This document shows positions 345 through 12,111 of a stretch of 64,000 nucleotides of DNA, in pieces. Source of the stretch: an uncultured Flavobacteriales bacterium (GTDB taxonomy: Bacteria; Bacteroidota; Bacteroidia; Flavobacteriales_D; Parvicellaceae). The notes under the pieces were generated by a model. It had not been told where the DNA came from. It was given only the letters and a program-made list of their open reading frames with translations, and made no database searches. How positions within the stretch are numbered: position 1 is the first letter of the stretch; each line of letters opens with the position of its first letter. The DNA lies in NCBI GenBank assembly GCA_913030835.1, contig CAJWDP010000006.1, positions 1 to 64,000 of the forward strand, given 5' to 3'. The translations under genes and the position numbers were made by a program.

Positions 345-1010
345 TTAATAATCGGGCAATATTTTTTCTTGATATGCCTTTTGCCATTGTTCTTTCGTTG
401 CAACCGAAAGTAAAAATGGATCATCAATATTGTCTATTTTGTATTTGGATATTTGATCGGGCGTATATTTCCAATTCGGGTTTGGTATGTCGAACATCAA
501 TACAATGCGATCTTCTTCACTGTTGTTCCAAGCTTCGTGTTCAAAAGAATCATCGAATATTACCAGTTCCCCCTCCTTCCATACATGTTCACTTGAACCT
601 ACCCGAATCTTGCACAGTTCTCCCTCGGGAACTACCAATGGCAAATGGCAGCGCAAAACCATTTTTGAATACCCTTTGTGGGGTAATATGTGGGTATTGG
701 CGGGCAACCAAGAAAAATCACATGATATTATTTCCTCCATGCTATCAATCAAAGAAGCCGTTTTCGGACAGAGGTTCGAATGACGAAGGTTTTTCATTTG
801 AAAAAAAATAAATGTGAATACTTTCCAAGGGGCTTTGATTTTACTTTTGACATAATCCGGAAACGTATTCATCCATTCGGAAGAGTCGTACAACTTCAAT
901 AATTCAATTAGCTCAGCTCGAATGACTGGAAAATTTTCAACGAGATTCCCTAAAAATGGAAATTCCTCAGAATCATAAAAATACTTCGGGTTCTTATCTG
1001 TTCTATCCAT
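345..1010 (-). CDS. Aspartyl/asparaginyl beta-hydroxylase family dioxygenase
   Basis: 221 residues. The protein carries the signature of the Asp/Asn beta-hydroxylase (ASPH/LpxO-type) 2-oxoglutarate and Fe(II) dioxygenases: ILPHKG near 108-113, RCHLPL at 120-125 and DDSFEHEAWN at 153-162, followed by R168. By analogy with human ASPH, H122 and H158 should be the iron ligands and R168 should bind 2-oxoglutarate. The family lacks the usual acidic third ligand, and none is seen here. There is no signal peptide, so it should be cytoplasmic. The substrate cannot be told: members act on protein Asp/Asn, free amino acids or lipid A acyl chains. It is head-to-head with a paralogue starting at 1067, and the sulfotransferase operon lies beyond that. 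Confidence 0.85.
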   Translation of the reverse strand: MDRTDKNPKYFYDSEEFPFLGNLVENFPVIRAELIELLKLYDSSEWMNTFPDYVKSKIKAPWKVFTFIFFQMKNLRHSNLCPKTASLIDSMEEIISCDFSWLPANTHILPHKGYSKMVLRCHLPLVVPEGELCKIRVGSSEHVWKEGELVIFDDSFEHEAWNNSEEDRIVLMFDIPNPNWKYTPDQISKYKIDNIDDPFLLSVATKEQWQKAYQEKILPDY

Positions 1011-1066: not shown

Positions 1067-1807
1067 TTGAAACTGTGGTTCAGCCTTTACGATAAAACTC
1101 GGGAGTACATCGGACAAGAGCCCCCTTATGTCGATCCCAAAACTCAAAATTGGACCGCAGATTTTGAGCTTCATTGCAACTCAATTCTAACCGAACTTAA
1201 TGCCTATTTGGAAAAGCATCAGCTTAGCTCCTATTTTAATACTTCCATGGTGAATCAACCAAATACATGGAAAACCATTTCACTGAAATGGTGGGGAATT
1301 GAATTCAAAAAACAACAAAAACATTTCCCCCGAACTGCAGCATTGCTGAAAAAATATCCTGAAATAGTTTCTCTTTCATTCAATCAATTGAGCCCAGGGG
1401 GAAGAATTCTTCCACATTGCGGTGATACCAACGCAATTTACCGATGTCATTTTGGGCTGGATATTCCTGCTCCTCTTCCTGATTGCGGATTTAGTGTAAA
1501 AGGAGAGAAACAGTCTTGGGAGAACGGCAAGTGGTTAATTTTTATGGACGCTTTTGAACACGAAGCCTGGAACCTGACTGAAAAAAATCGAATCATACTC
1601 GTTTTGGACACTGTACGTCAAGAATATACGAGTAAAAAGAACAAAGTTTTATCCGTTGTTATAACTTCTTTGTTCTTGCAAAAACGTGCAGAAAAGTTCA
1701 AATTTCTGCAAAACTCCCCTCAATGGATCATTTCAACTTTGGCTTACCTACTCCGACCTTTTGCTTTTTCAGCAATTAAAATGGTTAATTTGTTCAGGGT
1801 ATACTAA
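1067..1807 (+). CDS. Aspartyl/asparaginyl beta-hydroxylase family dioxygenase, second copy
   Basis: 246 residues, starting with TTG. An in-frame stop lies at 1037 and there is no upstream ATG. The same catalytic set as the neighbour is present: ILPHCGDTN at about 114-122, RCHFGL at 126-131 and DAFEHEAWNL at 161-170, then an Arg. H128 and H165 are the predicted Fe(II) ligands. It has about 65 more C-terminal residues than the core, ending in a hydrophobic stretch (WIISTLAYLLRPFAFSAI) that could be amphipathic or membrane-associated. It is paralogous to, and divergent from, the gene at 345-1010 with 56 bp between. The converging sulfotransferase operon ends 14 bp beyond its stop. A role in hydroxylating a product of that operon is inference from position only. 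Confidence 0.85.
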   Translation: MKLWFSLYDKTREYIGQEPPYVDPKTQNWTADFELHCNSILTELNAYLEKHQLSSYFNTSMVNQPNTWKTISLKWWGIEFKKQQKHFPRTAALLKKYPEIVSLSFNQLSPGGRILPHCGDTNAIYRCHFGLDIPAPLPDCGFSVKGEKQSWENGKWLIFMDAFEHEAWNLTEKNRIILVLDTVRQEYTSKKNKVLSVVITSLFLQKRAEKFKFLQNSPQWIISTLAYLLRPFAFSAIKMVNLFRVY

Positions 1808-1820
1808 TCGAATCCATTTT

Positions 1821-2867
1821 TCAGACGCTTTTTGAACTATTCTTTCTTCGTTTAACGAATAATTTCATACCTAATGGAATAGGCTTATATGCAGCCAATA
1901 AATACTTTCGGTATAGTTTAGCCAATCCAGTGTAATAAATCGCAGATAAACCTTTGACCTTTTTGGATACATGAGCAGGATACCCTAGTGATCTTAACCA
2001 TTCCCCACAAATTTGCTCCACTTTAAGCAAGGTCGACTCCTCCAAAACCATTTTGTACTGCCCAATTTTCGAATCACTTATATCATCACTTAAGCCACTA
2101 TGGAAGCTCCGCAATCGATGTAAGAAATCAGCATCAACATCACCTTCCTTTTGTTCTAAAAAACTTGCATAAACTCCATCCGTTTTTAGCATTTTCTCAT
2201 CGAATTTTACACCTAAAAATGAACAGGTTTTGATCAATGAAGACCTGGTATCAGCTATTAATTGTTCGTACTGGATCACACACCTATCTTGCTCTCTAAT
2301 GAAGCGCATATTAGAATACGTGTCCCTCCACAATCCGGCTAAAAAAAGAGGGTGCTGATTCCAATTCAGTGCTCTTTTTTGTTTTGAAATAATGTTATCC
2401 CTCACATCCCTCACCAAAATAATGTACCGAGCGTCAGGAAATATTTTTCTTAAACTTTTGAGGTGAAAAAAATATTTGATTTGCTTATCTACTATAACGG
2501 ATACATGGGATTTACTCTTAGTATCCAAAAAATGTAGATAGGTGAGTTTTACAATTCTATTGTAATTGAGGAACTCACGATGGTGTAACAGCGATTTTAA
2601 AAAGACCTCCTTTTTGCTGAAATACAGGTCCAAGTTCTTTTCAGCAATAGCAAAAAACTGATCCACATACGAACTGACATCCTTTTCGGACCATTCGGTT
2701 TTATGCCGGTATTTTCTCCAGAAGTACAGTGCAAAAGGTTCTTCGCTTGGAGATAGAATTTCAGAATGCAAGTTCAACATCATGCTAAACAAAGAACTTC
2801 CTGTTCGCTCAGTGCATAGTACAAAATGAATTGCGATATCATCCAGCTTTTCCTTTGAGTAAATCAT
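1821..2867 (-). CDS. Sulfotransferase family protein (third of three)
   Basis: 348 residues. The PAPS-binding 5'-phosphosulfate loop is seen as FVLCTERTGSSLF near residues 15-27. The 3'-phosphate motif is seen as YIILVRDVRDNIIS in the middle of the protein. This matches the PF13469-type sulfotransferases that move sulfate from PAPS to sugars, lipids or proteins. There is no signal peptide; the C-terminus is basic. It is the last gene of the 12111-1821 operon and starts 1 nt after the stop of the preceding sulfotransferase, so it is translationally coupled. Its P-loop starts T-E-R rather than the G-R of its two paralogues, so substrate or activity may differ. Confidence 0.85.
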   Translation of the reverse strand: MIYSKEKLDDIAIHFVLCTERTGSSLFSMMLNLHSEILSPSEEPFALYFWRKYRHKTEWSEKDVSSYVDQFFAIAEKNLDLYFSKKEVFLKSLLHHREFLNYNRIVKLTYLHFLDTKSKSHVSVIVDKQIKYFFHLKSLRKIFPDARYIILVRDVRDNIISKQKRALNWNQHPLFLAGLWRDTYSNMRFIREQDRCVIQYEQLIADTRSSLIKTCSFLGVKFDEKMLKTDGVYASFLEQKEGDVDADFLHRLRSFHSGLSDDISDSKIGQYKMVLEESTLLKVEQICGEWLRSLGYPAHVSKKVKGLSAIYYTGLAKLYRKYLLAAYKPIPLGMKLFVKRRKNSSKSV

Positions 2868-2868
2868 A

Positions 2869-3885
2869 TTATCGGAAATGGTTTACAAGAAATTTTTGCA
2901 GCCGGAACGGAAGGTAAAAAGAAATCTTTCGAATTGCAGACAAAACAACTCCTTTGACTAGATTAGGAAGAAGTTTAATCCGAATAACACTCTTTTTGTA
3001 TTTGGAAATCTGGAGAGATGGCTGGTAACCAAATTTCATACCCGTCTTTGCACAATACAATTCAAGTTTTTCAATGGTTTCAATTTCCTCATTTTTCCAT
3101 ATACCAATTCGTTCATCTGTTATCGGTTGACTTGACAAATGATGCATGTCTTGTAAAAACTCTTGTTCATTTAAGGAAATATTGGAAGGTGAATAATCAT
3201 GCTTAAAATGTAATCGAAAATCTTTCATGGTTGGTTGGAATTCAAGACCTAAAAAAGAACAAACTTCACTTAGCACTTGGTCTGTGTCAGTTATAAGGCG
3301 CTCATACTTCACAATCATACAAGAATCGCTATACTTCGTGTAATATGTATGTAAAACCTTGTTTCTTTTCGACCAAACGATTCCTCTAATTATGCCTGCA
3401 GGAATGTACTTATATGGCTGATTATTTCTAATTGAAACATAGCGATCTCTGTAATCCCTAACCAGAATTATTTTTTTTGAATTCGGGTAATACCGTTCAA
3501 TTACTTTCAAATGTTTGGTATACATTGGGTTCTTGTCAACGACTACTTTGGGATTGGGTTTGCTTCCAACACCATTATAAGAGAGATAGATACAATTAAA
3601 AAGTTCAGCCAGACTTTGGGGTTTCCGAAGCGATAGTACTTTCAAAAGTTCTTCATTATTTTGATTCCAAGCCCCTTTCAACTCGCTTTTTCTTAACCAG
3701 AGGTTGGCAACAATTGCTTTGTAATCCTTTTCGGTAAAGCCAGATTTATGTCTGAACTTAATACCAATCAAAATCAGAAAAACACTCTCCGGTACGCTAA
3801 GTATCTGAGTATGCCCGTTGAGCAAATTGCTCAGCAGAGTTGAGCCGGATCTTCCGGCACTCAATATGAAAGCATGTTCTATCAA
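2869..3885 (-). CDS. Sulfotransferase family protein (second of three)
   Basis: 338 residues. The 5'-phosphosulfate loop FILSAGRSGSTLLSNLL is at residues 6-22, and the 3'-phosphate-binding motif KIILVRDYRDRYVSI lies centrally. The start codon is TTG, whose last bases overlap the upstream stop in a TTGA arrangement (3882-3885). This mirrors the ATGA couplings elsewhere in the operon and is why I accept the TTG. It is predicted to use PAPS to sulfate an acceptor, probably a glycan or lipid given the glycosyltransferase and acyl genes upstream. That acceptor is inferred. Confidence 0.87.
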   Translation of the reverse strand: MIEHAFILSAGRSGSTLLSNLLNGHTQILSVPESVFLILIGIKFRHKSGFTEKDYKAIVANLWLRKSELKGAWNQNNEELLKVLSLRKPQSLAELFNCIYLSYNGVGSKPNPKVVVDKNPMYTKHLKVIERYYPNSKKIILVRDYRDRYVSIRNNQPYKYIPAGIIRGIVWSKRNKVLHTYYTKYSDSCMIVKYERLITDTDQVLSEVCSFLGLEFQPTMKDFRLHFKHDYSPSNISLNEQEFLQDMHHLSSQPITDERIGIWKNEEIETIEKLELYCAKTGMKFGYQPSLQISKYKKSVIRIKLLPNLVKGVVLSAIRKISFYLPFRLQKFLVNHFR

Positions 3886-4943
3886 AGACCTGTTACTTTT
3901 TGTAGCCGTTTTAATTTCAATTTTATCGGCATATAATAAATTAGGTACTCCTTGTATATGCTATACATAGCCCTCATATAAAACCAAAAATAACGAAGAA
4001 CAATCCAAACATAAAGGTTGCGATATTTCTTGGTTAAATCATACCCATATAGCAACCCAATCTTTCCACAAATTTGTTCCGAGATCTTTATTTCTTTATC
4101 CGTTAAACCGGTTTTCCAAGCATGTATACGATCCTCATAAACCGGCTCAGCCAAACCCTTAAAATGCACATTTGCAAATTCCTTCGTGCGCTGGTCTTCA
4201 ATCGAGTCAGAAACACCGCTTATCAATCTGTCTTGAAAAGCTTGTTTGTCAAACACTATATTCAGAAAGTTTGATATTCGACGCAATTCAATTTCTTGTT
4301 TCTTCACCAGATCTTCATATCGAGTTACTAAACAATCTTCATTCCCCTGAAAACGGATCAATTTCCTATGAAAAATTCTCCAACGAAAGGCATTGTATAC
4401 AACTGAACTGGGCTTGTTAAGAGATTTAGCCTTTCTACTCAAGACATTTGCCCTGTAATCCCTAACTAAAACCACAAATTTTGGATTAGGAGAAAGAGTT
4501 TTGAGCAATTTATAATGGAATGAATAGTACGGATTTTTATCTACTACAATCTTGGTTTTTCCTGACTTTTCTGCAACTGAAAATTGCTCGAAAACTGCGG
4601 ACAGGAATCCATGATAATTAATGTAAGATAGAGATTCAAAATTCAGTGAATTTGAATTCAAATTCACCAGATCAAGAGGTCTCACCTTTTGGTAAATCGA
4701 CAAATAAATTTGTGCGAATTTTTCTAACTCAATGCTTTTACCGTTCAGGGTTTTATAGTGCTTTGCAAAAAACACGGTAATCGGTATTTCCGGGATGGCT
4801 TTTACTTCGGGGATGGCATTCAACATCGTGCTCAATAATGTGCTTCCCGAACGCCCAATACCAATCAAATAATTCAGACTGGACAAATCTTCATTCTGCC
4901 CAGCTATAGTTTCAATCGATCTTTCTCTTTTTTTAGAATTCAT
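3882..4943 (-). CDS. Sulfotransferase family protein (first of three)
   Basis: 353 residues. The P-loop YLIGIGRSGSTLLSTML is at 25-41, after an N-terminal extension of about 24 polar residues. The second PAPS motif reads KFVVLVRDYRANVLS. It begins the block of three tandem sulfotransferase paralogues and lies 53 bp after the GNAT gene, the widest gap in the operon. The three proteins share only motif-level and patchy similarity, so the duplication is old and each probably has its own acceptor position. Predicted cytoplasmic. Confidence 0.87.
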   Translation of the reverse strand: MNSKKRERSIETIAGQNEDLSSLNYLIGIGRSGSTLLSTMLNAIPEVKAIPEIPITVFFAKHYKTLNGKSIELEKFAQIYLSIYQKVRPLDLVNLNSNSLNFESLSYINYHGFLSAVFEQFSVAEKSGKTKIVVDKNPYYSFHYKLLKTLSPNPKFVVLVRDYRANVLSRKAKSLNKPSSVVYNAFRWRIFHRKLIRFQGNEDCLVTRYEDLVKKQEIELRRISNFLNIVFDKQAFQDRLISGVSDSIEDQRTKEFANVHFKGLAEPVYEDRIHAWKTGLTDKEIKISEQICGKIGLLYGYDLTKKYRNLYVWIVLRYFWFYMRAMYSIYKEYLIYYMPIKLKLKRLQKVTGL

Positions 4944-4996
4944 TACTAATCGTGCCCATATAACATCCCTGAAACCTCATACGCCCAAGATTGCTG

Positions 4997-5626
4997 TCAG
5001 TAAGAACAGTTTTCCTCAAGATAAGTATTAAGCTCATCTAAATTCTCAGAACACGGCTTACCGCGAACAATTAAAGAACCATCTGAATTACTGTAAGATT
5101 TTGCTGCTTTTTTAAGCAATTTATTTTTACGATTAAATGTTTCCTTAGATAAAACATACCAAGGATTGGAAACACTTCCCTGCTTCGGCAATTGAACGTA
5201 CCCCAACATCTTATTATAGCGTTGAGCCTCCTCATTTGAATGCAATACCCGAGCAAAAGAGAGGTTACCAATTTGCAATTCATTGAATATAAAATCCAAC
5301 AAAATAAGTGAAGCAAATGTAGGATAGGGTGTCCTCAAATATTTTTCGTTCCAAATAAAAATCCCCCCTTCTCCTACTTGATCTATCACATTCACTTCCT
5401 TACAATTGATCACCCCAATGGATTCATCGCCAATGAAGATCAAAAAATAATAGTTCAGTTTGTTGTTTACACTTCTGAACCAGGCAATTTGCTCTGAAGA
5501 TGAAATCTTCTTGCGATATGCCATTCTTTTGCGAATCGCCGGATCATTGCGTTTAATTCGAATTAGTTCAATATCTTCTTCTGTAATTCTCCTGAGAGAA
5601 ATACCGTATTGCTCGAGGATTATCAT
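4997..5626 (-). CDS. GNAT family N-acyltransferase
   Basis: 209 residues. The fold matches the RimJ/PseH-like GNAT group: ISLRRITEEDIELIRIKRND at the N-terminus, beta strands with FLIFIGDESIGVINCKEV, and a helical NEEAQRYNKMLGYV segment that is usual near the end of the domain. Such enzymes transfer an acyl group from CoA or an acyl carrier protein to an amine, often the amino group of a nucleotide sugar. Its ATG overlaps the GT2 stop as ATGA. With two KAS III enzymes, an acyl carrier protein and a ketoreductase upstream, the likely donor is the hydroxyacyl chain built by those enzymes. That link is inference. Confidence 0.8.
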   Translation of the reverse strand: MIILEQYGISLRRITEEDIELIRIKRNDPAIRKRMAYRKKISSSEQIAWFRSVNNKLNYYFLIFIGDESIGVINCKEVNVIDQVGEGGIFIWNEKYLRTPYPTFASLILLDFIFNELQIGNLSFARVLHSNEEAQRYNKMLGYVQLPKQGSVSNPWYVLSKETFNRKNKLLKKAAKSYSNSDGSLIVRGKPCSENLDELNTYLEENCSY

Positions 5627-6552
5627 AGTTCGTCTCCAATTGCATAAAGTGGCATATTCTGAACCGATTTAAACACTTTATTTAAGTATTCACCAATAAT
5701 TCCTATGGCAAAAAGGATAACACCGGTTGAAAACAGAATACTGACAATTAGAGCCGCAAATCCGGGCTCTTCAATTTTTCCGATTAGTTTTCGAACAATA
5801 TAAAATGAACCGATCAAAAGATTCACAACGGCAAAGGTCAGTCCTAAATATTTGATGAAACGCAATGGGAAATCAGACGAAAACAACATCAACTCAGCGG
5901 AAGTATTAACCAAACCTCTTATGGTGTAATTACTTTTACTTCGCAAGCCCACCCGGTGCTTCATATCAACAAACTCTACGCGCTCGGTATGCCATAAACA
6001 GAGTTCATCTATGAATGAAAAACTATTTGCATTCTCCACAACAGCCTTTGCCAAGTTAATTTTTAGCAGTCGAAAACTTGAACCATGAACACGATTTTTA
6101 CCCTCTACCATTTTTGCAAAAAACCGAAACACGGCGAACATGATAATCCGAATCGGACCTCTTTTCAAGTTCGTGTAATGCGCATAGACCAGATCTGCAT
6201 CTGTTTCCAATTGTTTATTTAATAATGCTTCAACCTGTTCAGGATCTGATTCAAGATCGTCGTCCATAGTAATCACAAATTCTCCCGACGCTTTGTTAAA
6301 ACCGCAAATTGTCGCTTTATGCTGACCAAAGTTCTTCGATAATCGAACCCCCTTAATTCGAGCCAATGAATTCGACTTGATATGTCTTATGGTATCCCAT
6401 GTAGCATCAGAGCTGAAGTCATCGACAATGATCAATTCGAAATTTAATTTTTTTTGTTCAAAAGCAGTAGTAATGGAAGTAATACTGTCTTCTAGGAATT
6501 CAGCTGAATTGTAGGTTGGGATAACCACACTGTATTTTACCGAGTTCGTCAT
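5623..6552 (-). CDS. Family 2 glycosyltransferase, polyprenyl-phosphate type (ArnC/GtrB/DPM1-like)
   Basis: 309 residues from the ATG at 6552, which overlaps the upstream stop as ATGA; the frame stays open further upstream, but only inside the SDR gene. The GT-A domain shows YSVVIPTYNS, ELIIVDDFSSD, the NFGQHKATICG motif and a catalytic TMDDDLESDPEQ. Two hydrophobic segments close the protein (LGLTFAVVNLLIGSFYIV and FAALIVSILFSTGVILFAIG). This is the layout of enzymes that put a sugar from a nucleotide sugar onto undecaprenyl phosphate at the inner membrane. The product could feed the membrane GT-C-like protein encoded at 9571-12111. Confidence 0.88.
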   Translation of the reverse strand: MTNSVKYSVVIPTYNSAEFLEDSITSITTAFEQKKLNFELIIVDDFSSDATWDTIRHIKSNSLARIKGVRLSKNFGQHKATICGFNKASGEFVITMDDDLESDPEQVEALLNKQLETDADLVYAHYTNLKRGPIRIIMFAVFRFFAKMVEGKNRVHGSSFRLLKINLAKAVVENANSFSFIDELCLWHTERVEFVDMKHRVGLRSKSNYTIRGLVNTSAELMLFSSDFPLRFIKYLGLTFAVVNLLIGSFYIVRKLIGKIEEPGFAALIVSILFSTGVILFAIGIIGEYLNKVFKSVQNMPLYAIGDEL

Positions 6553-7286
6553 GCTCCAGCCGTTAAACCTCCATCTAAAATAAGATTCGTACCCGTAACC
6601 CACCTGGACGCTTCTGAAAGCAAAAAGAGCGCAGCGTTAGCCACATCTTCAGGCTCACCAAAACCCAGCAAATATTTCTTTTTATGATTTTCCAGCAATT
6701 CTTCGGGAAGACTATTCACCGTTTCCTCGAGCACTCTTGTATTTACAAGAGCTGCTTTAATGCAATTGGAACGAATATTTTTATGAGCATACTCTAGCGC
6801 AACCACCTTGCTATACGTTTCCAATGCCGCTTTAAATGCCGTGTATACAGCACCACCTTTATAAGGAAATGAGCTGGATATAGATGATATGAACACAATG
6901 GATGCACCGTTGTTTATTTTCTTCTTGCGAAGTAAAGTAGAAGTGAGCTCAACGGGGGCGTTGAAGTTAATATTTTGTATCTCTCTGATGTGCTTTTCTC
7001 CTACAAAAGAAATGGGAAAAGGTTTGACAATGCCTGCAGCATGAACAATACCATCGACATTTTGAATACAATCAACCAAATTCGCTACGCCTTGAGACGA
7101 ACTCAGATCCTCTGCTACAATTGATCCACCACAATCCTTACTGACCTCATCCAACTTGGATTCATTTCGACCCGATAAAATCAAATTGGCTCCCGATTTT
7201 GCACATTCCAAAGCACAAGCTCTGCCAATTCCAGAGGAAGCCCCAGTTATTAGGATTGTTTTATTTTGCAAACCAAACTGCTCCAT
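6549..7286 (-). CDS. Short-chain dehydrogenase/reductase, FabG-like ketoreductase
   Basis: 245 residues. Rossmann NAD(P) site TGASSGIGRACA near the N-terminus, a NAG-like HAAGIV, the catalytic Ser in SSISSSF, the YxxxK motif as YTAFK, and the FabG-like tail FLLSEASRWVTGTNLILDGG. It should reduce a 3-oxoacyl thioester to the 3-hydroxyacyl form, here probably on the operon's own acyl carrier protein. Start choice: ATG at 7286 shares a base with the upstream TGA (TGATG); a GTG at 7289 is the alternative. It is coupled downstream to the GT2 gene by an ATGA overlap. Confidence 0.87.
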   Translation of the reverse strand: MEQFGLQNKTILITGASSGIGRACALECAKSGANLILSGRNESKLDEVSKDCGGSIVAEDLSSSQGVANLVDCIQNVDGIVHAAGIVKPFPISFVGEKHIREIQNINFNAPVELTSTLLRKKKINNGASIVFISSISSSFPYKGGAVYTAFKAALETYSKVVALEYAHKNIRSNCIKAALVNTRVLEETVNSLPEELLENHKKKYLLGFGEPEDVANAALFLLSEASRWVTGTNLILDGGLTAGA

Positions 7287-8335
7287 CACAACTCAATCAT
7301 CTTGGGGCAAATTACATTATTTGTTTGAATTAATGCGTGCCCCCAGGACAATCCAACTCCGAATCCACTTAGGAGCATCTTTTTTGGTTCACTCATAACG
7401 TCAGACAATTCAGAAACAATGGTTAAAGGTATACTGGCACTGCTTGTATTGCCATACCGATCCAGAGAATACGGAACTTGATCAGGATTAAATTTCAGCT
7501 TTTTTCTGATTGATTCATTCATTAATTTGTTGGCTTGATGCATTACGAAATAGTCAAGCTGTTCCGGAGTAGTTTTGTTGTCAGCTAAAAACAGTTTGAC
7601 CGATTCAGGAACTTTTGTAATCGAGAAATTGAATACCGAGAGTCCATCCAATTGTAAATGAAGATCGGCTCTGTAGTTTCCATCCTCTCTTTTTCGCTCT
7701 TCAAGAGAATCTGCAGTTAAAAGATGTCTCATACCCCCATGAGGTATTTTAATTGCATCTTCTCCCGAACCATCAGAGTACATGGCAAAATTCCACTCGT
7801 TCTGTTCTGTCAATTCCAATAGTGTTGCCGTTCCCGCATCTCCAAACAAAGGATACGTGCTTGTATCGTTATAGGAGCAGGTGACTGTAGAGACATCACC
7901 CACCAGCAATAGTGCTTTTTGAATACCTGAAGAGCGCATGATCGACGCTGCCACACCCAATCCATAGGTATAACCTGAACAACCCAGACCGATATCAAAA
8001 GCCATACAATCCTGAGGCAGTTGCAATCTTTGCTGAGCAAGAAGTGCAGTTGAGGGCAGATAATAATCCCTGCTTTGAGTAACAAAGATTTCCAATTTTA
8101 TCTCAGACCGATCAACCCCGGTCTCTTCAAATAGCTGCTCCGCCGCTTTACAAGCATAATCTAATGTCGTTGTATATTTTGGCGCAACCCTTCTGGTTTC
8201 AACTCCAATCGTTTTTACCAGCATCCTTCTTTCCGATTCAGAGAGAACTTCATAATCGAAATTTGAAACAACCCTCTTAGGAACACATGCAGCTATTCCT
8301 TTTATGTCAACACCGGAAATAGAAAACTGAGCCAC
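7286..8335 (-). CDS. 3-oxoacyl-ACP synthase III (KAS III/FabH-like), second copy
   Basis: 349 residues. The KAS III Cys-His-Asn triad is present: C119 in DIGLGCSGYTYGL, His in VMHQANKLM, and Asn in RYGNTSSASIPL. It should condense an acyl-CoA or acyl-ACP primer with malonyl-ACP by decarboxylative Claisen condensation. It starts with GTG, one base after the acyl carrier protein stop. It is only distantly similar to the KAS III at 8567-9574, so the two probably take different primers. With the ketoreductase downstream this suggests short-chain hydroxyacyl synthesis rather than housekeeping fatty acid initiation. Confidence 0.9.
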   Translation of the reverse strand: MAQFSISGVDIKGIAACVPKRVVSNFDYEVLSESERRMLVKTIGVETRRVAPKYTTTLDYACKAAEQLFEETGVDRSEIKLEIFVTQSRDYYLPSTALLAQQRLQLPQDCMAFDIGLGCSGYTYGLGVAASIMRSSGIQKALLLVGDVSTVTCSYNDTSTYPLFGDAGTATLLELTEQNEWNFAMYSDGSGEDAIKIPHGGMRHLLTADSLEERKREDGNYRADLHLQLDGLSVFNFSITKVPESVKLFLADNKTTPEQLDYFVMHQANKLMNESIRKKLKFNPDQVPYSLDRYGNTSSASIPLTIVSELSDVMSEPKKMLLSGFGVGLSWGHALIQTNNVICPKMIEL

Positions 8336-8336
8336 A

Positions 8337-8567
8337 CTACTTTGATTTTACTAAATCGAACAATTCTTGAATTGTAGTCACCGACCTCATGTCTGCACCC
8401 GTAAGCGTTACATCGTATTCTGTATCAATTAACGCAATTATAATTAAGGCGTGCATTGAGCCCCAGTCTTCAATCGTTCTAAAATCCGTTGAGGGTTGAA
8501 GTACGCCCCTTTCAATGTCTTCAAACTCCTCTTCCAGTTTTCTAATAAATTCTTCAATTGTCATCAT
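8337..8567 (-). CDS. Dedicated acyl carrier protein
   Basis: 76 residues, acidic and helical. The phosphopantetheine attachment site is the Ser of EDWGSMHALIII, where Trp-Gly-Ser-Met replaces the usual Asp-Ser-Leu. That divergence is typical of specialised rather than housekeeping carriers. It starts at one of two successive ATGs (8567 or 8564); the first overlaps the upstream TGA as TGATG. Flanked on both sides by KAS III genes, it most likely carries the growing chain for both. A phosphopantetheinyl transferase is not seen in the window. Confidence 0.85.
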   Translation of the reverse strand: MMTIEEFIRKLEEEFEDIERGVLQPSTDFRTIEDWGSMHALIIIALIDTEYDVTLTGADMRSVTTIQELFDLVKSK

Positions 8568-9574
8568 CAATACCTTAAAACCGTTCCTGACCATGAGAAC
8601 CCAATACCAAAAGCAGCAATTAGCACTTTAGACCCCTGTGGTATCTTTCCTTCTTGTTGCGCACAATATAATGCGATAGGGACAGATGCAGAAACCGTAT
8701 TGCCCATGTATTCCATACAATTGTAAACTTTTTCTTGCTGTAATTGCAATTTTCTGGCAAGCATTTTCAGAATAAATGAGTTCGCCTGATGAAAAACAAA
8801 TAAATCGATGTCGTCCAAAGTCAATTCATTCTTTTCCAAAATCTGATTGACCATTTTGGGCACCTCTCTCATGGAAAAAGAAAACACTTCCAAACCATCC
8901 ATTTCCATCCTTCCAAAAACCATTCCTCCAGCATCTGCATGTTCCCTTAACCATTCTTCATCGACCGGCGTGCGTGTATTGCTCTTTCGAACGATTAGGT
9001 CCTGAGCACCTGAACCGTCGGTTCCAACTATAAAATCACCGATTCCTTTTTCTTCCGAAGCGCTAATCAGGGTAGATGCGCCAGCATCACCAAATAACAT
9101 TCTTAATTCCAAGTCATTCGGATGTATAACTGAAGAAGGTATATCTGCTGTTTGGAGCAGCACGTGTTTAAACTGACCTGATTCGATCAATGCTTTTGCC
9201 ACCACCAATCCATTTGTAAATCCTGCACAACCCATGGGAACATCCATCGCTCCAACGGATTTTCTCAACCCCAGCCGCTCTTGCATAATGCATGCAGTAG
9301 CAGGACCTTTATAGTCCAATCCTTCAGTGCAAAACAATAAAAAGTCAATTTCCTTTTTGTCAATCCCATGTTCTTCGAATAACAACTGTGAACTTTTGAA
9401 CGCAAGATCGGATCCTATCTCTCCTACTCCTCTGATCCTTCTCTCCTTAACTCCAACTCGTTTGAAAATTTCATTCGATGTTAAGGTTCCGAACTCTCTA
9501 AAAAGATCTTCATTCGATAGCTTTTTTTCCGGCAGGTAGAAGCTAATGGCCTTTATTTGTGAGAAATTATTCAG
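8567..9574 (-). CDS. 3-oxoacyl-ACP synthase III (KAS III/FabH-like), first copy, apparent CTG start
   Basis: Active-site Cys in VPMGCAGFTNGL (about C116), His in FVFHQANSF and Asn in YMGNTVSASVPI. The first conventional start in frame (TTG at 9385) would leave only 272 residues and remove about 60 residues that clearly belong to KAS III, including YLPEKKLSNEDL and RVGVKERRI. The frame is open up to 9598 but has no ATG, GTG or TTG there. A CTG at 9574 overlaps the upstream stop as CTGA and is preceded by AAAGGA with 6 nt spacing; it gives 335 residues, the normal family length. I therefore place the start there. Coupled downstream to the carrier protein. Confidence 0.8.
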   Translation of the reverse strand: MNNFSQIKAISFYLPEKKLSNEDLFREFGTLTSNEIFKRVGVKERRIRGVGEIGSDLAFKSSQLLFEEHGIDKKEIDFLLFCTEGLDYKGPATACIMQERLGLRKSVGAMDVPMGCAGFTNGLVVAKALIESGQFKHVLLQTADIPSSVIHPNDLELRMLFGDAGASTLISASEEKGIGDFIVGTDGSGAQDLIVRKSNTRTPVDEEWLREHADAGGMVFGRMEMDGLEVFSFSMREVPKMVNQILEKNELTLDDIDLFVFHQANSFILKMLARKLQLQQEKVYNCMEYMGNTVSASVPIALYCAQQEGKIPQGSKVLIAAFGIGFSWSGTVLRY

Positions 9575-12111
9575 CTGGATTCCTTTAATCGTTTGTATTT
9601 CTGAGCTTTGACCTTATCTCCCATCTGCTCACTAAGGTTCATCAGGCTGTTGCACACCTTATTGAGCTGCCCGATAATCTGCGATGATTGTATACGTCTG
9701 ATCTTCTTTTCCAATGTTTTGTCTTGACGAACCAAGTTCAGATGAGTTTGTAATCCTTCCGCAGCCAATTCAAAATATACAATCGAGCTGGGAATGTCTT
9801 TGGCTCTCAAATAAGCATTTCCGATATTCGTGTAGAATTGATACTTATTGTCAAATTTGTCAACCAATGATGCTTTTTGATTCAATTCAATACAATCCGA
9901 GATCTTACCGTTACTCAAGTAATATTCGGACAATTTTGAATACGCCGGGAAATAAGTAGAGTCGTATCTTATTGCTTTAGAAATATGTCCTACCATAATC
10001 GACTCCAGACTATCGCTAACCCCCCACAAATGATTTCGAAGCCCTTCCCTATTGTACTTTCCCTTTACCAGATTAAGAAACAGGGCCTTACTCATATTTT
10101 CGTACAAATTCTCCGTTAAAAACTGCAAAAGAACTCCTTCTGTTGCCATAGCTTCAAATTGATCGACTTCCTTCAACAGGGATTTCGCGAACTCATCTGA
10201 ATTGAACATACGTTTCAAATTTGAACTTTGAACAGTTTGATCGAGTGCTTTCGTAAGGTTCGATACAAATGACTCTGCATCCGGCGATTTTTTTCCTACT
10301 TCAATCAGTTCTTTTTGAATGTTCTTCTGAAATTTCGCAAAAGATTCGATCAGATCCATATTCCTAAGAAGAAAATCATTTGGTGGTGAGCTGCTGTATT
10401 GAACAGAATCGGAATATTTTTCAAATAGTCTGCAAAATGAACCTATTTCATTGCATTCATCAAAATAGGTATTGCCCATATTAAAATTGGCTTCTACATA
10501 ATCAGAATCCAATTCAAGCGCACGTTCAAAATTCATCCTCGAGGAATCTACATCCGCTTTGTATAGGAAATACATCGCGCCGAGGTTATTGTAACTCACC
10601 GCATAACTCGTGTCAATTTCAATGCACCGAGTAAAATGGTGAAGGGTGAGCTGCAGTTTTTTATTGTATTCCTCAACGAGCCGTCTATTCATTTGACTCT
10701 GAGGTCCCATCAATTTTCCGCGCAATGATTTTAGTTCAGAAGCATACAATTGAGCAATGAGTGAATGCGATTTTGCCGACTCCTGCAAATTCACTATATC
10801 TGTCTCATACAAAGAATTTCTTGAGCTCCAAGCAGGATTTCTGGACAGCACTGCAGTAAGCGACACGATCAACAGTACCCCAATAGAAATCGATCCGATC
10901 ATTCGTTTCCTCGATCCTGCAATTTTGAACAAATACATCAGCCCTGAAGCTAGTACTATGCAAAATCCGAGGCTAGCAACAAAGGCAAATCTCTCAGCGA
11001 TAATTCCAACAGCCGGGAAGAGCAAATTGCATGCGCCTCCAATTCCAAAGAAAAAGAGTAAAACACCAAATCCCCAAACTTCCCGCTTCTTCATTCTAAG
11101 CATGATCCATGATACCAAAGAGACCATAAAGGCAGCCATGAACCAAACAATAGGTGTAGCCCAGGTCGCAATAGACACTTGATTGAATCCATAATAAAAT
11201 CGAAGTGGGTAGGGAAATAACAGCAATTTCAAGTAATAAAAATTGCTGTAAAAATACATCGGTATTCGTTCGGCAAATGACTGTGAAAAATAGAGCGGAT
11301 TTTCAAAAAACTGCTTTTCTCGAGCAACAGATTCTGTTATCATTCCCTTGGAAATCAGTTTCCAGATAAGAAAAACGCCGACTATGGAGCCAAAAAAAAC
11401 CAACAATTTGCCTAATCGCAGGGCTCTGAAATAATAAGCAGTCAATAACAGAAATGGGATAAATGTCATTCCTGTTTTCTTACAAAGCAAACTAAACAGC
11501 AGAAGAAGCAATGTAGCAATTAGGAACATTAGTTTCTTCCGATCCAGGTATTTCAAAAGATTGATCATGGCTCCTAAGCCAAATGCCAAACAGAGCAGCT
11601 CATCCCTGGATTTTATATTATTGACCACCTCAGAATGCAACGGATGAATCAAAAACAACAGAGCCACTATAGCAGCAAACCACCTGCCCCCCGAAGGATA
11701 AGCGATCCGAAAAAATCGGAAAATCAAAATAACGACCAATGCGTAAAACAACGTATTAAAAAAATGTGATATCGCCGGATTGCTGCCGAAAAGCTGATAT
11801 TCAATCGCAAACACAGCTGTTACCACCGGCCTGTACCCATACCGTTGCTTTTTATTTACTGCAAAGTGACTCGTAAGAATAGAGGGAATACCGGAAAATC
11901 CTTTTTCCACATTCGGATGTCGCGATATAAGCTCTCGACTTCCATCTTCGTTATACTGATAGGTCGTAGTAACGAGATCGTCGTCCATGGCATATTTATT
12001 CTTAAGTGTAGAACCATAGAAAACGAAAGACAACGCGATAAAGAGCAAATAAAAGTGCCAGTTTTTCCATTGATTTTCTACTAAGGCGGTTTGCTTCGCT
12101 TGTCTGCTCAT
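9571..12111 (-). CDS. TMTC-like polytopic membrane protein with TPR domain (putative GT-C glycosyltransferase)
   Basis: 846 residues. The N-terminal half holds about ten hydrophobic helices. After the first helix an acidic AMDDD motif (41-45) lies in the first extracytoplasmic loop, the position of the catalytic Asp in PMT/GT-C enzymes. A second loop reads HSEVVNNIKSRDELL (about 159-173), close to the loop seen in TMTC/DUF1736 proteins. The C-terminal half (from about 450) has TPR-like helices, e.g. AVSYNNLGAMYFLYKA, YVEANFNMGNTYFDE and KYQFYTNIGNAYLRAKD. It probably uses a polyprenyl-linked sugar to glycosylate a periplasmic acceptor. It is first in the operon, divergent from the helicase gene at 12191. 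Confidence 0.72.
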   Translation of the reverse strand: MSRQAKQTALVENQWKNWHFYLLFIALSFVFYGSTLKNKYAMDDDLVTTTYQYNEDGSRELISRHPNVEKGFSGIPSILTSHFAVNKKQRYGYRPVVTAVFAIEYQLFGSNPAISHFFNTLFYALVVILIFRFFRIAYPSGGRWFAAIVALLFLIHPLHSEVVNNIKSRDELLCLAFGLGAMINLLKYLDRKKLMFLIATLLLLLFSLLCKKTGMTFIPFLLLTAYYFRALRLGKLLVFFGSIVGVFLIWKLISKGMITESVAREKQFFENPLYFSQSFAERIPMYFYSNFYYLKLLLFPYPLRFYYGFNQVSIATWATPIVWFMAAFMVSLVSWIMLRMKKREVWGFGVLLFFFGIGGACNLLFPAVGIIAERFAFVASLGFCIVLASGLMYLFKIAGSRKRMIGSISIGVLLIVSLTAVLSRNPAWSSRNSLYETDIVNLQESAKSHSLIAQLYASELKSLRGKLMGPQSQMNRRLVEEYNKKLQLTLHHFTRCIEIDTSYAVSYNNLGAMYFLYKADVDSSRMNFERALELDSDYVEANFNMGNTYFDECNEIGSFCRLFEKYSDSVQYSSSPPNDFLLRNMDLIESFAKFQKNIQKELIEVGKKSPDAESFVSNLTKALDQTVQSSNLKRMFNSDEFAKSLLKEVDQFEAMATEGVLLQFLTENLYENMSKALFLNLVKGKYNREGLRNHLWGVSDSLESIMVGHISKAIRYDSTYFPAYSKLSEYYLSNGKISDCIELNQKASLVDKFDNKYQFYTNIGNAYLRAKDIPSSIVYFELAAEGLQTHLNLVRQDKTLEKKIRRIQSSQIIGQLNKVCNSLMNLSEQMGDKVKAQKYKRLKESS

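Follow-up and report, generated by a model that had tools for sequence, protein, structure and literature searches.

We analyzed a 64,000-nucleotide stretch of DNA (the window) from an uncultured Flavobacteriales bacterium. It spans the initial 64 kb of a contig of 99 kb (CAJWDP010000006.1) in a genome of 3.14 Mb that is 99.95% complete. Close to its left end lies a cluster of ten minus-strand genes, running from 12111 to 1821, which encode a TMTC-like GT-C glycosyltransferase, two 3-ketoacyl-acyl carrier protein (ACP) synthases of the FabH-like KAS III type (KAS1 and KAS2) flanking a dedicated ACP, a ketoreductase (KR), a GT2 glycosyltransferase, a GNAT N-acyltransferase, and three sulfotransferases (ST3, ST2, and ST1). 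Our favored reading, to which we give a probability of roughly 0.55, is that of a periplasmic glycosylation system of the three-component type, whose custom sugar donor would be acylated, hydroxylated, and sulfated. The parts are each known singly, and we found no cluster combining them in this way described in the openly accessible literature, which omits most subscription papers.

Gene order and conservation of the cluster

Every junction in the cluster is an overlap or a few-base gap, except for 53 bp between the GNAT gene and ST3. A first-pass annotation of this DNA had described ten packed minus-strand genes at 1821-12111, and all of them are present, with the claimed domains and catalytic signatures intact. 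The two hydroxylases it mentioned nearby are a divergent PF05118 pair, HYD1 (345-1010, minus strand) and HYD2 (1067-1807, plus strand), located past the last operon gene, ST1, and outside the operon, with HYD2 convergent with the operon end. Since the window begins at the contig end, the left side of the locus is truncated at base 1. Three gene starts were revised. The ACP start was moved to the ATG at 8567, which gives a protein of 76 amino acids, and that of the GT2 gene to the ATG at 6552, which gives 309 amino acids and matches its relatives. Near the start of KAS1, ATG, GTG, and TTG are all absent, and from the sequence this gene probably starts with the CTG at 9574, within the stop of the TMTC-like gene (CTGA, 9571-9574). 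In two relatives of the same genus, an ATG is present at this junction (TAATG).

The first-pass annotation had proposed a synteny search in other Bacteroidota. We searched for KAS1 in 60 genomes, comprising the window genome and its relatives, and found the close type in 11. Further loci were found through KAS2 in named genomes, including Aequorivita, Mesonia, Haloflavibacter, and Bacteroidetes 46-16, among others. A core of seven genes, TMTC-KAS1-ACP-KAS2-KR-GT2-GNAT, retains its order fully or almost fully in most of the approximately 15 Flavobacteriales and Bacteroidota loci, among them those of the 11 genomes in which the contig is intact. The genomes with the cluster are spread over four genera in two families of the order, in addition to the named genomes, and the closest named relatives at the locus are metagenome-assembled genomes labeled Flavobacteriales and Crocinitomicaceae. 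The close KAS2 type is sparse in a wider sample of the phylum (13 of 395 genomes). The TMTC-like gene is displaced or unseen in some loci. In genome G024 (L030 18648-21049), it is broken into several frames, and the KAS, ACP, GNAT, and ST genes look intact.

The tailoring genes are physically linked to this core as well. Eight intact genomes have 33 PF13469 sulfotransferase genes between them, of which 20 are no more than 11 kb from KAS2, at least one per genome; in five genomes, all 14 PF05118 genes are that close. PF05118 is present in 7 of the 11 cluster genomes compared to 3 of the 49 others (Fisher p 8e-5); because the genomes are related and hence not independent samples, the linkage and co-occurrence figures overstate significance. 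Single homologs scattered through unrelated contexts were not the pattern seen. Since other genomes show this gene order and content again, we conclude that the combination is not a chance neighborhood.

The acyl cassette and the proposed sugar donor

KAS1, KAS2, ACP, and KR would together produce a short 3-hydroxy- or 3,5-dihydroxyacyl-ACP. Both KAS1 (8567-9574, minus strand) and KAS2 (7286-8335, minus strand) were assigned from domain profiles and active-site motifs and have an intact Cys-His-Asn triad (GCAGF/HQAN/GNT in KAS1 and GCSGY/HQAN/GNT in KAS2). In a phylogenetic tree, they fall into distinct clades. The 76-amino-acid protein between them (8337-8567, minus strand) is too divergent for Pfam, where its match stays below the cut-off (E about 0.1). 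However, its AlphaFold (AF2) model has a pLDDT of 86, the top Foldseek matches in the PDB are solved ACPs with a TM-score of about 0.7, and one Ser, in the motif W[S/G/D]S[M/L/I], is invariant in 17 homologs. An ACP fold is thus supported by the predicted structure. KR (6549-7289, minus strand) is a short-chain dehydrogenase/reductase of the 3-ketoacyl-ACP reductase type (PF13561, E 2e-47) with both GASSGIG and YxxxK.

The window contains a KAS-ACP-KAS-KR cassette. The Flavobacterium O-antigen precedent that the first-pass annotation mentioned is real: for the O-antigen R-group genes wfpC-wfpG of F. psychrophilum, a set of two 3-ketoacyl-ACP synthases, a dedicated ACP, a ketoacyl-ACP reductase, and an N-acyltransferase for an amino sugar has been proposed, with a 3,5-dihydroxyhexanoyl product (PMC6519341). 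For the comparison of the synthases, cassettes from F. paronense (L032) and other genomes stood in for that of F. psychrophilum. The KAS2-type enzyme is common to window-type and O-antigen-type cassettes. The second synthase is of the KAS1 type in the window and in L164, L167, and L168, but belongs to a third type, in another clade, in the comparable F. paronense cassette. The acyl product may therefore differ. Two O-antigen-type KAS/ACP cassettes have an additional gene of 360-362 amino acids inserted (L164 10040-11128 and L167 7118-8200); the one in L164 encodes a Rieske oxygenase, a further hint of acyl or sugar oxidation. Outside the Bacteroidota, a KAS2-like gene (37%) with two SDR reductase genes after it occurs in Parablautia muri (Bacillota; L033 10001-14468).

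The wfp precedent raises the possibility that the product is a single residue in the repeat unit of a conventional O-antigen or capsule, namely an N-(dihydroxy)acyl amino sugar polymerized by Wzx/Wzy as in F. psychrophilum. The shared gene set speaks for this, as do the O-antigen-type cassettes found in L032, L164, and L168, of which those in L164 and L168 come with PglD acyltransferases and that in L168 also with PglC- and PglF-like genes. However, the wfp acyltransferase is likewise of the PglD type, and none was found in the window cluster, which has a GNAT instead. Window-type loci use this GNAT together with a GtrB/ArnC-type GT2 and a GT-C enzyme, and no PglC-type transferase, Wzx, or Wzy was recognized within them, although L027 has a flippase. 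The window cluster also differs from wfp in being without bacillosamine, Wzx, and Wzy genes and in its linked GT2, GT-C, sulfotransferase, and hydroxylase genes. We consider the O-antigen explanation unlikely.

Under the glycosylation reading, the acyl chain would next be moved by the GNAT (4997-5626, minus strand; PF13302, E 3e-10) to a nucleotide-activated 4-amino-4,6-dideoxysugar, at its amino group. In the PDB, MJ1062, an uncharacterized archaeal protein, is the closest solved relative, followed by FdhC and PseH. Both FdhC and PseH N-acylate nucleotide amino sugars, and FdhC moves a 3-hydroxybutyryl group. Against the curated PseH profile, the window protein scores 56 bits, under the cut-off of 93. 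As for the supply of the amino sugar, a transaminase of the WecE (dTDP-Fuc4N) type adjoins the cluster in three relatives (L021, which is Aequorivita viscosa, L022, and L031), over the curated cut-off, and a DegT transaminase lies near it in L026 and L165. The window genome also has a WecE homolog over the cut-off. The WecE homolog at L088 9752-10798 (G000:C16) aligns to the family profile no further than position 300 of 375; since the match is cut off in the same way in both genus relatives (G001 and G002), the C-terminus appears to be replaced or frame-shifted genus-wide.

The GT2 enzyme (5623-6552, minus strand) was assigned as a PgfS/ArnC-like polyprenyl-phosphate glycosyltransferase from family profiles, PDB matches, and transmembrane prediction. 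Its closest solved structures are GtrB sll0501 (E 5e-38) and ArnC (E 3e-29), both of which attach one sugar to undecaprenyl phosphate. The DDD motif is intact, and two transmembrane segments are predicted at the C-terminus. With GtrB as its nearest structure, this protein corresponds to the polyprenyl-phosphate-sugar synthase of a three-component system, and its substrate would be the N-acylated sugar, which it would load onto undecaprenyl phosphate.

The TMTC-like transferase and the putative tailoring enzymes

The first gene of the operon (9571-12111, minus strand) encodes an 846-residue protein with a C-terminal TPR domain. A profile search of the PDB with its N-terminal alignment was negative, and the fold was therefore modeled with AlphaFold (AF2) from 34 homologs (pLDDT 84). 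Plain Foldseek returned only TPR proteins as top matches, and the relation to GT-C enzymes came from structure matching with VIA. Residues 6-458 match STT3 (Z score 20.2), Pmt4 (19.3), and ArnT (17.6), in alignments of 320-345 residues with a root mean square deviation of 4.3-4.7, and also ALG12 (19). Residues 499-846 align with TPR proteins in VIA, and there is a Pfam TPR match too. The predicted structure thus supports a GT-C fold for the N-terminal domain, and we infer that the protein may act as a periplasmic GT-C transferase.

Like the eukaryotic O-mannosyltransferases TMTC1-4 (PMC7801869), this protein has a GT-C domain followed by TPR repeats, DD and YRP motifs, an ER motif in EL5, and a partner GT2 resembling dolichol-phosphate-mannose (DPM) synthase. 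The DD of motif M1 (D43-D44) and the YRP of M2 (Y93-R94-P95) are practically invariant in the 34 homologs; the rest of SHKSYRP is not kept. At the positions of the TMTC motifs M3 RxD, M6 PxxP, and M7 ERxxY, the window protein reads R169-D170-E171 (RxE), PxxG, and ERxxF; M7 is nearly kept. Motifs M4 and M5 differ, with KE changed to KK and DW to YY, and the donor is probably not mannose. Because these two are not kept, we call the protein TMTC-like rather than TMTC.

The resemblance to ArnT could point to a different acceptor, in which case the decorated sugar would go to lipid A, the core, or another lipid. The GT2 resembles ArnC and the GT-C domain ArnT, and the hydroxylases are nearest to LpxO/OlsC. 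On the other hand, the transferase has about 350 residues of TPR repeats, as in the protein-modifying TMTCs, and the match to PMT and STT3 is no worse than that to ArnT. An ArnT-like role therefore seems improbable to us. The TMTC-like protein would instead hand the decorated sugar, as a single unit, to an acceptor in the periplasm, most likely a protein and less likely lipopolysaccharide or another glycan.

The three sulfotransferases belong to PF13469. ST1 (1821-2867, minus strand; E 8e-23) has its best PDB matches in the olefin-synthase sulfotransferase 4gox and the CurM sulfotransferase; ST2 (2869-3885, minus strand; TTG start; E 6e-23) is closest to CurM (E 2e-12), and ST3 (3882-4943, minus strand; E 6e-23) to TPST2, then CurM. 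The CurM enzyme sulfates an ACP-bound 3-hydroxyacyl chain, and olefin synthase sulfotransferases likewise use a hydroxyacyl chain on an ACP. Unlike the CurM and olefin synthase enzymes, those of the window are free-standing, with basic C-terminal tails, and no decarboxylating thioesterase was recognized nearby. Motifs for binding 3′-phosphoadenosine 5′-phosphosulfate (PAPS) are intact in all three (5′-loop, or 5′-PSB, RxGS[ST] and 3′-PB LVRDxR). The window genome has an adenosine 5′-phosphosulfate (APS) kinase gene next to CysD- and CysN-like genes (a CysDNC locus), and no recognizable CysH was found in this 99.95% complete genome. PAPS is therefore probably made for sulfation. The cysN-, cysD-, and APS kinase-like genes (L091 683-3531, G000:C42) are close to GDP-fucose-type genes. 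In the same-genus genome G002, ST1 (L038 2604-3686) is split by a stop codon into 226 and 129 amino acids, which reflects either a pseudogene or an assembly error.

Both hydroxylases are Asp/Arg-hydroxylase-type 2-oxoglutarate oxygenases with the iron-ligand His motifs PHxG...FEHExW intact. HYD1 has a Pfam match at E 6e-43 and matches AspH in the PDB at E 1e-21; HYD2 has a Pfam match at E 1e-41. Among the NCBIfam profiles, HYD1 scores 108 bits with OlsC and 99 with LpxO, and HYD2 scores 100 bits with OlsC. The curated cut-offs for these families are not reached (78-108 vs 450-500 bits). OlsC and LpxO are acyl 2-hydroxylases. The divergent pair is kept in relatives, and a 71% identical copy of HYD1 occupies the same place in G002.

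No transmembrane segments are predicted in ST1-ST3, HYD1, or HYD2. The cluster sulfotransferases have basic hydrophobic C-terminal tails, with a mean charge of +8.8 compared to +2.4 in other sulfotransferases (p 4e-7, for tail sequences that are related to one another). HYD2-type hydroxylases have similar tails, hydrophobic and basic in HYD2 itself. Only charge and hydrophobic content set the sulfotransferase tails apart; their hydrophobic moment is no different from that of other sulfotransferases, and an LP-motif in the tails was picked post hoc, after inspection. Based on these tails, which are indirect evidence, on the cytosolic cofactors (PAPS and 2-oxoglutarate), and on genetic linkage, we infer that the sulfotransferases and hydroxylases sit at the cytoplasmic face of the inner membrane. 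There, they may modify the acyl chain or the sugar, as acyl-ACP or polyprenyl-linked sugar, before some flippase turns the decorated donor over.

These enzymes could also be merely co-located and serve another substrate, such as a sulfated exopolysaccharide, tyrosine residues, or membrane lipids. ST3 is closest to TPST2 in the PDB, the hydroxylases are on separate transcripts, and relatives without sulfotransferases exist. We give this little credence given the strong physical linkage in divergent genomes and the co-occurrence of PF05118 with the cluster.

Assessment and biological meaning

Several observations weigh against the glycosylation reading. All substrates are inferred, and the sulfotransferases and hydroxylases fall far below the cut-offs for specific functions. 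The TMTC metal-site motifs M4 KE(T/Q)xxT and M5 DW are not kept, the window having KKTxxT and YY. No flippase was found in the window cluster, and the GtrA flippase (PF04138) has no match in the window genome; other flippase types were not searched. The WecE copy of the window genome is on a different contig from the cluster, and genome-wide, WecE is not significantly associated with it (6 of 11 vs 15 of 49, p 0.13). Three loci (L026, L029, and L031) are without a nearby sulfotransferase, so sulfation is variable among relatives. Other tailoring genes vary too, with an MBOAT in L044 and L045, cupin oxygenases in L023 and L024, a carbamoyltransferase in L031, and a galactose-3-O-sulfotransferase-like gene in L046.

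For the glycosylation reading, three-component periplasmic glycosylation (PMC11127046), as in GtrA-GtrB-Gtr and the pentofuranose systems, is characterized by such a pairing of a GT2 with a GT-C enzyme. The window differs from these in its TMTC-like GT-C enzyme with TPR repeats, in its dedicated donor acylation, hydroxylation, and sulfation, and in the missing GtrA. The first-pass annotation had already arranged these enzymes into a pathway. Its observation of the cluster is confirmed, and its outline is well supported by conserved synteny, the solved relatives of the GNAT and GT2, the predicted GT-C fold, PAPS synthesis without CysH, and the sugar transaminases that four or five relatives have linked to the cluster; the chemistry is unproven. 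More tentatively, and we think doubtfully, the cluster may represent a bacterial equivalent of protein O-glycosylation by DPM and TMTC, with a TMTC-like GT-C enzyme of Flavobacteriales placing a single amino sugar on surface or secreted proteins; the short acyl chain on this sugar, the product of a dedicated miniature fatty-acid synthase, would be hydroxylated and sulfated. According to a review, the oligosaccharyltransferase and ligase of Bacteroidota O-glycosylation are still undiscovered.

The component kinds are known; new here is a candidate system of the three-component type with a custom donor, in which a TMTC-like transferase would be combined with an acyl cassette resembling wfp and with enzymes for hydroxylation and sulfation. 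The prediction is that surfaces of marine Bacteroidota bear a sulfated N-acyl amino sugar, with candidates named for every pathway step save the flippase. That tailoring differs between loci (in sulfotransferases, hydroxylases, MBOAT, carbamoyltransferase, and cupin oxygenases) hints at antigenic variation, with phages or predators as possible drivers.

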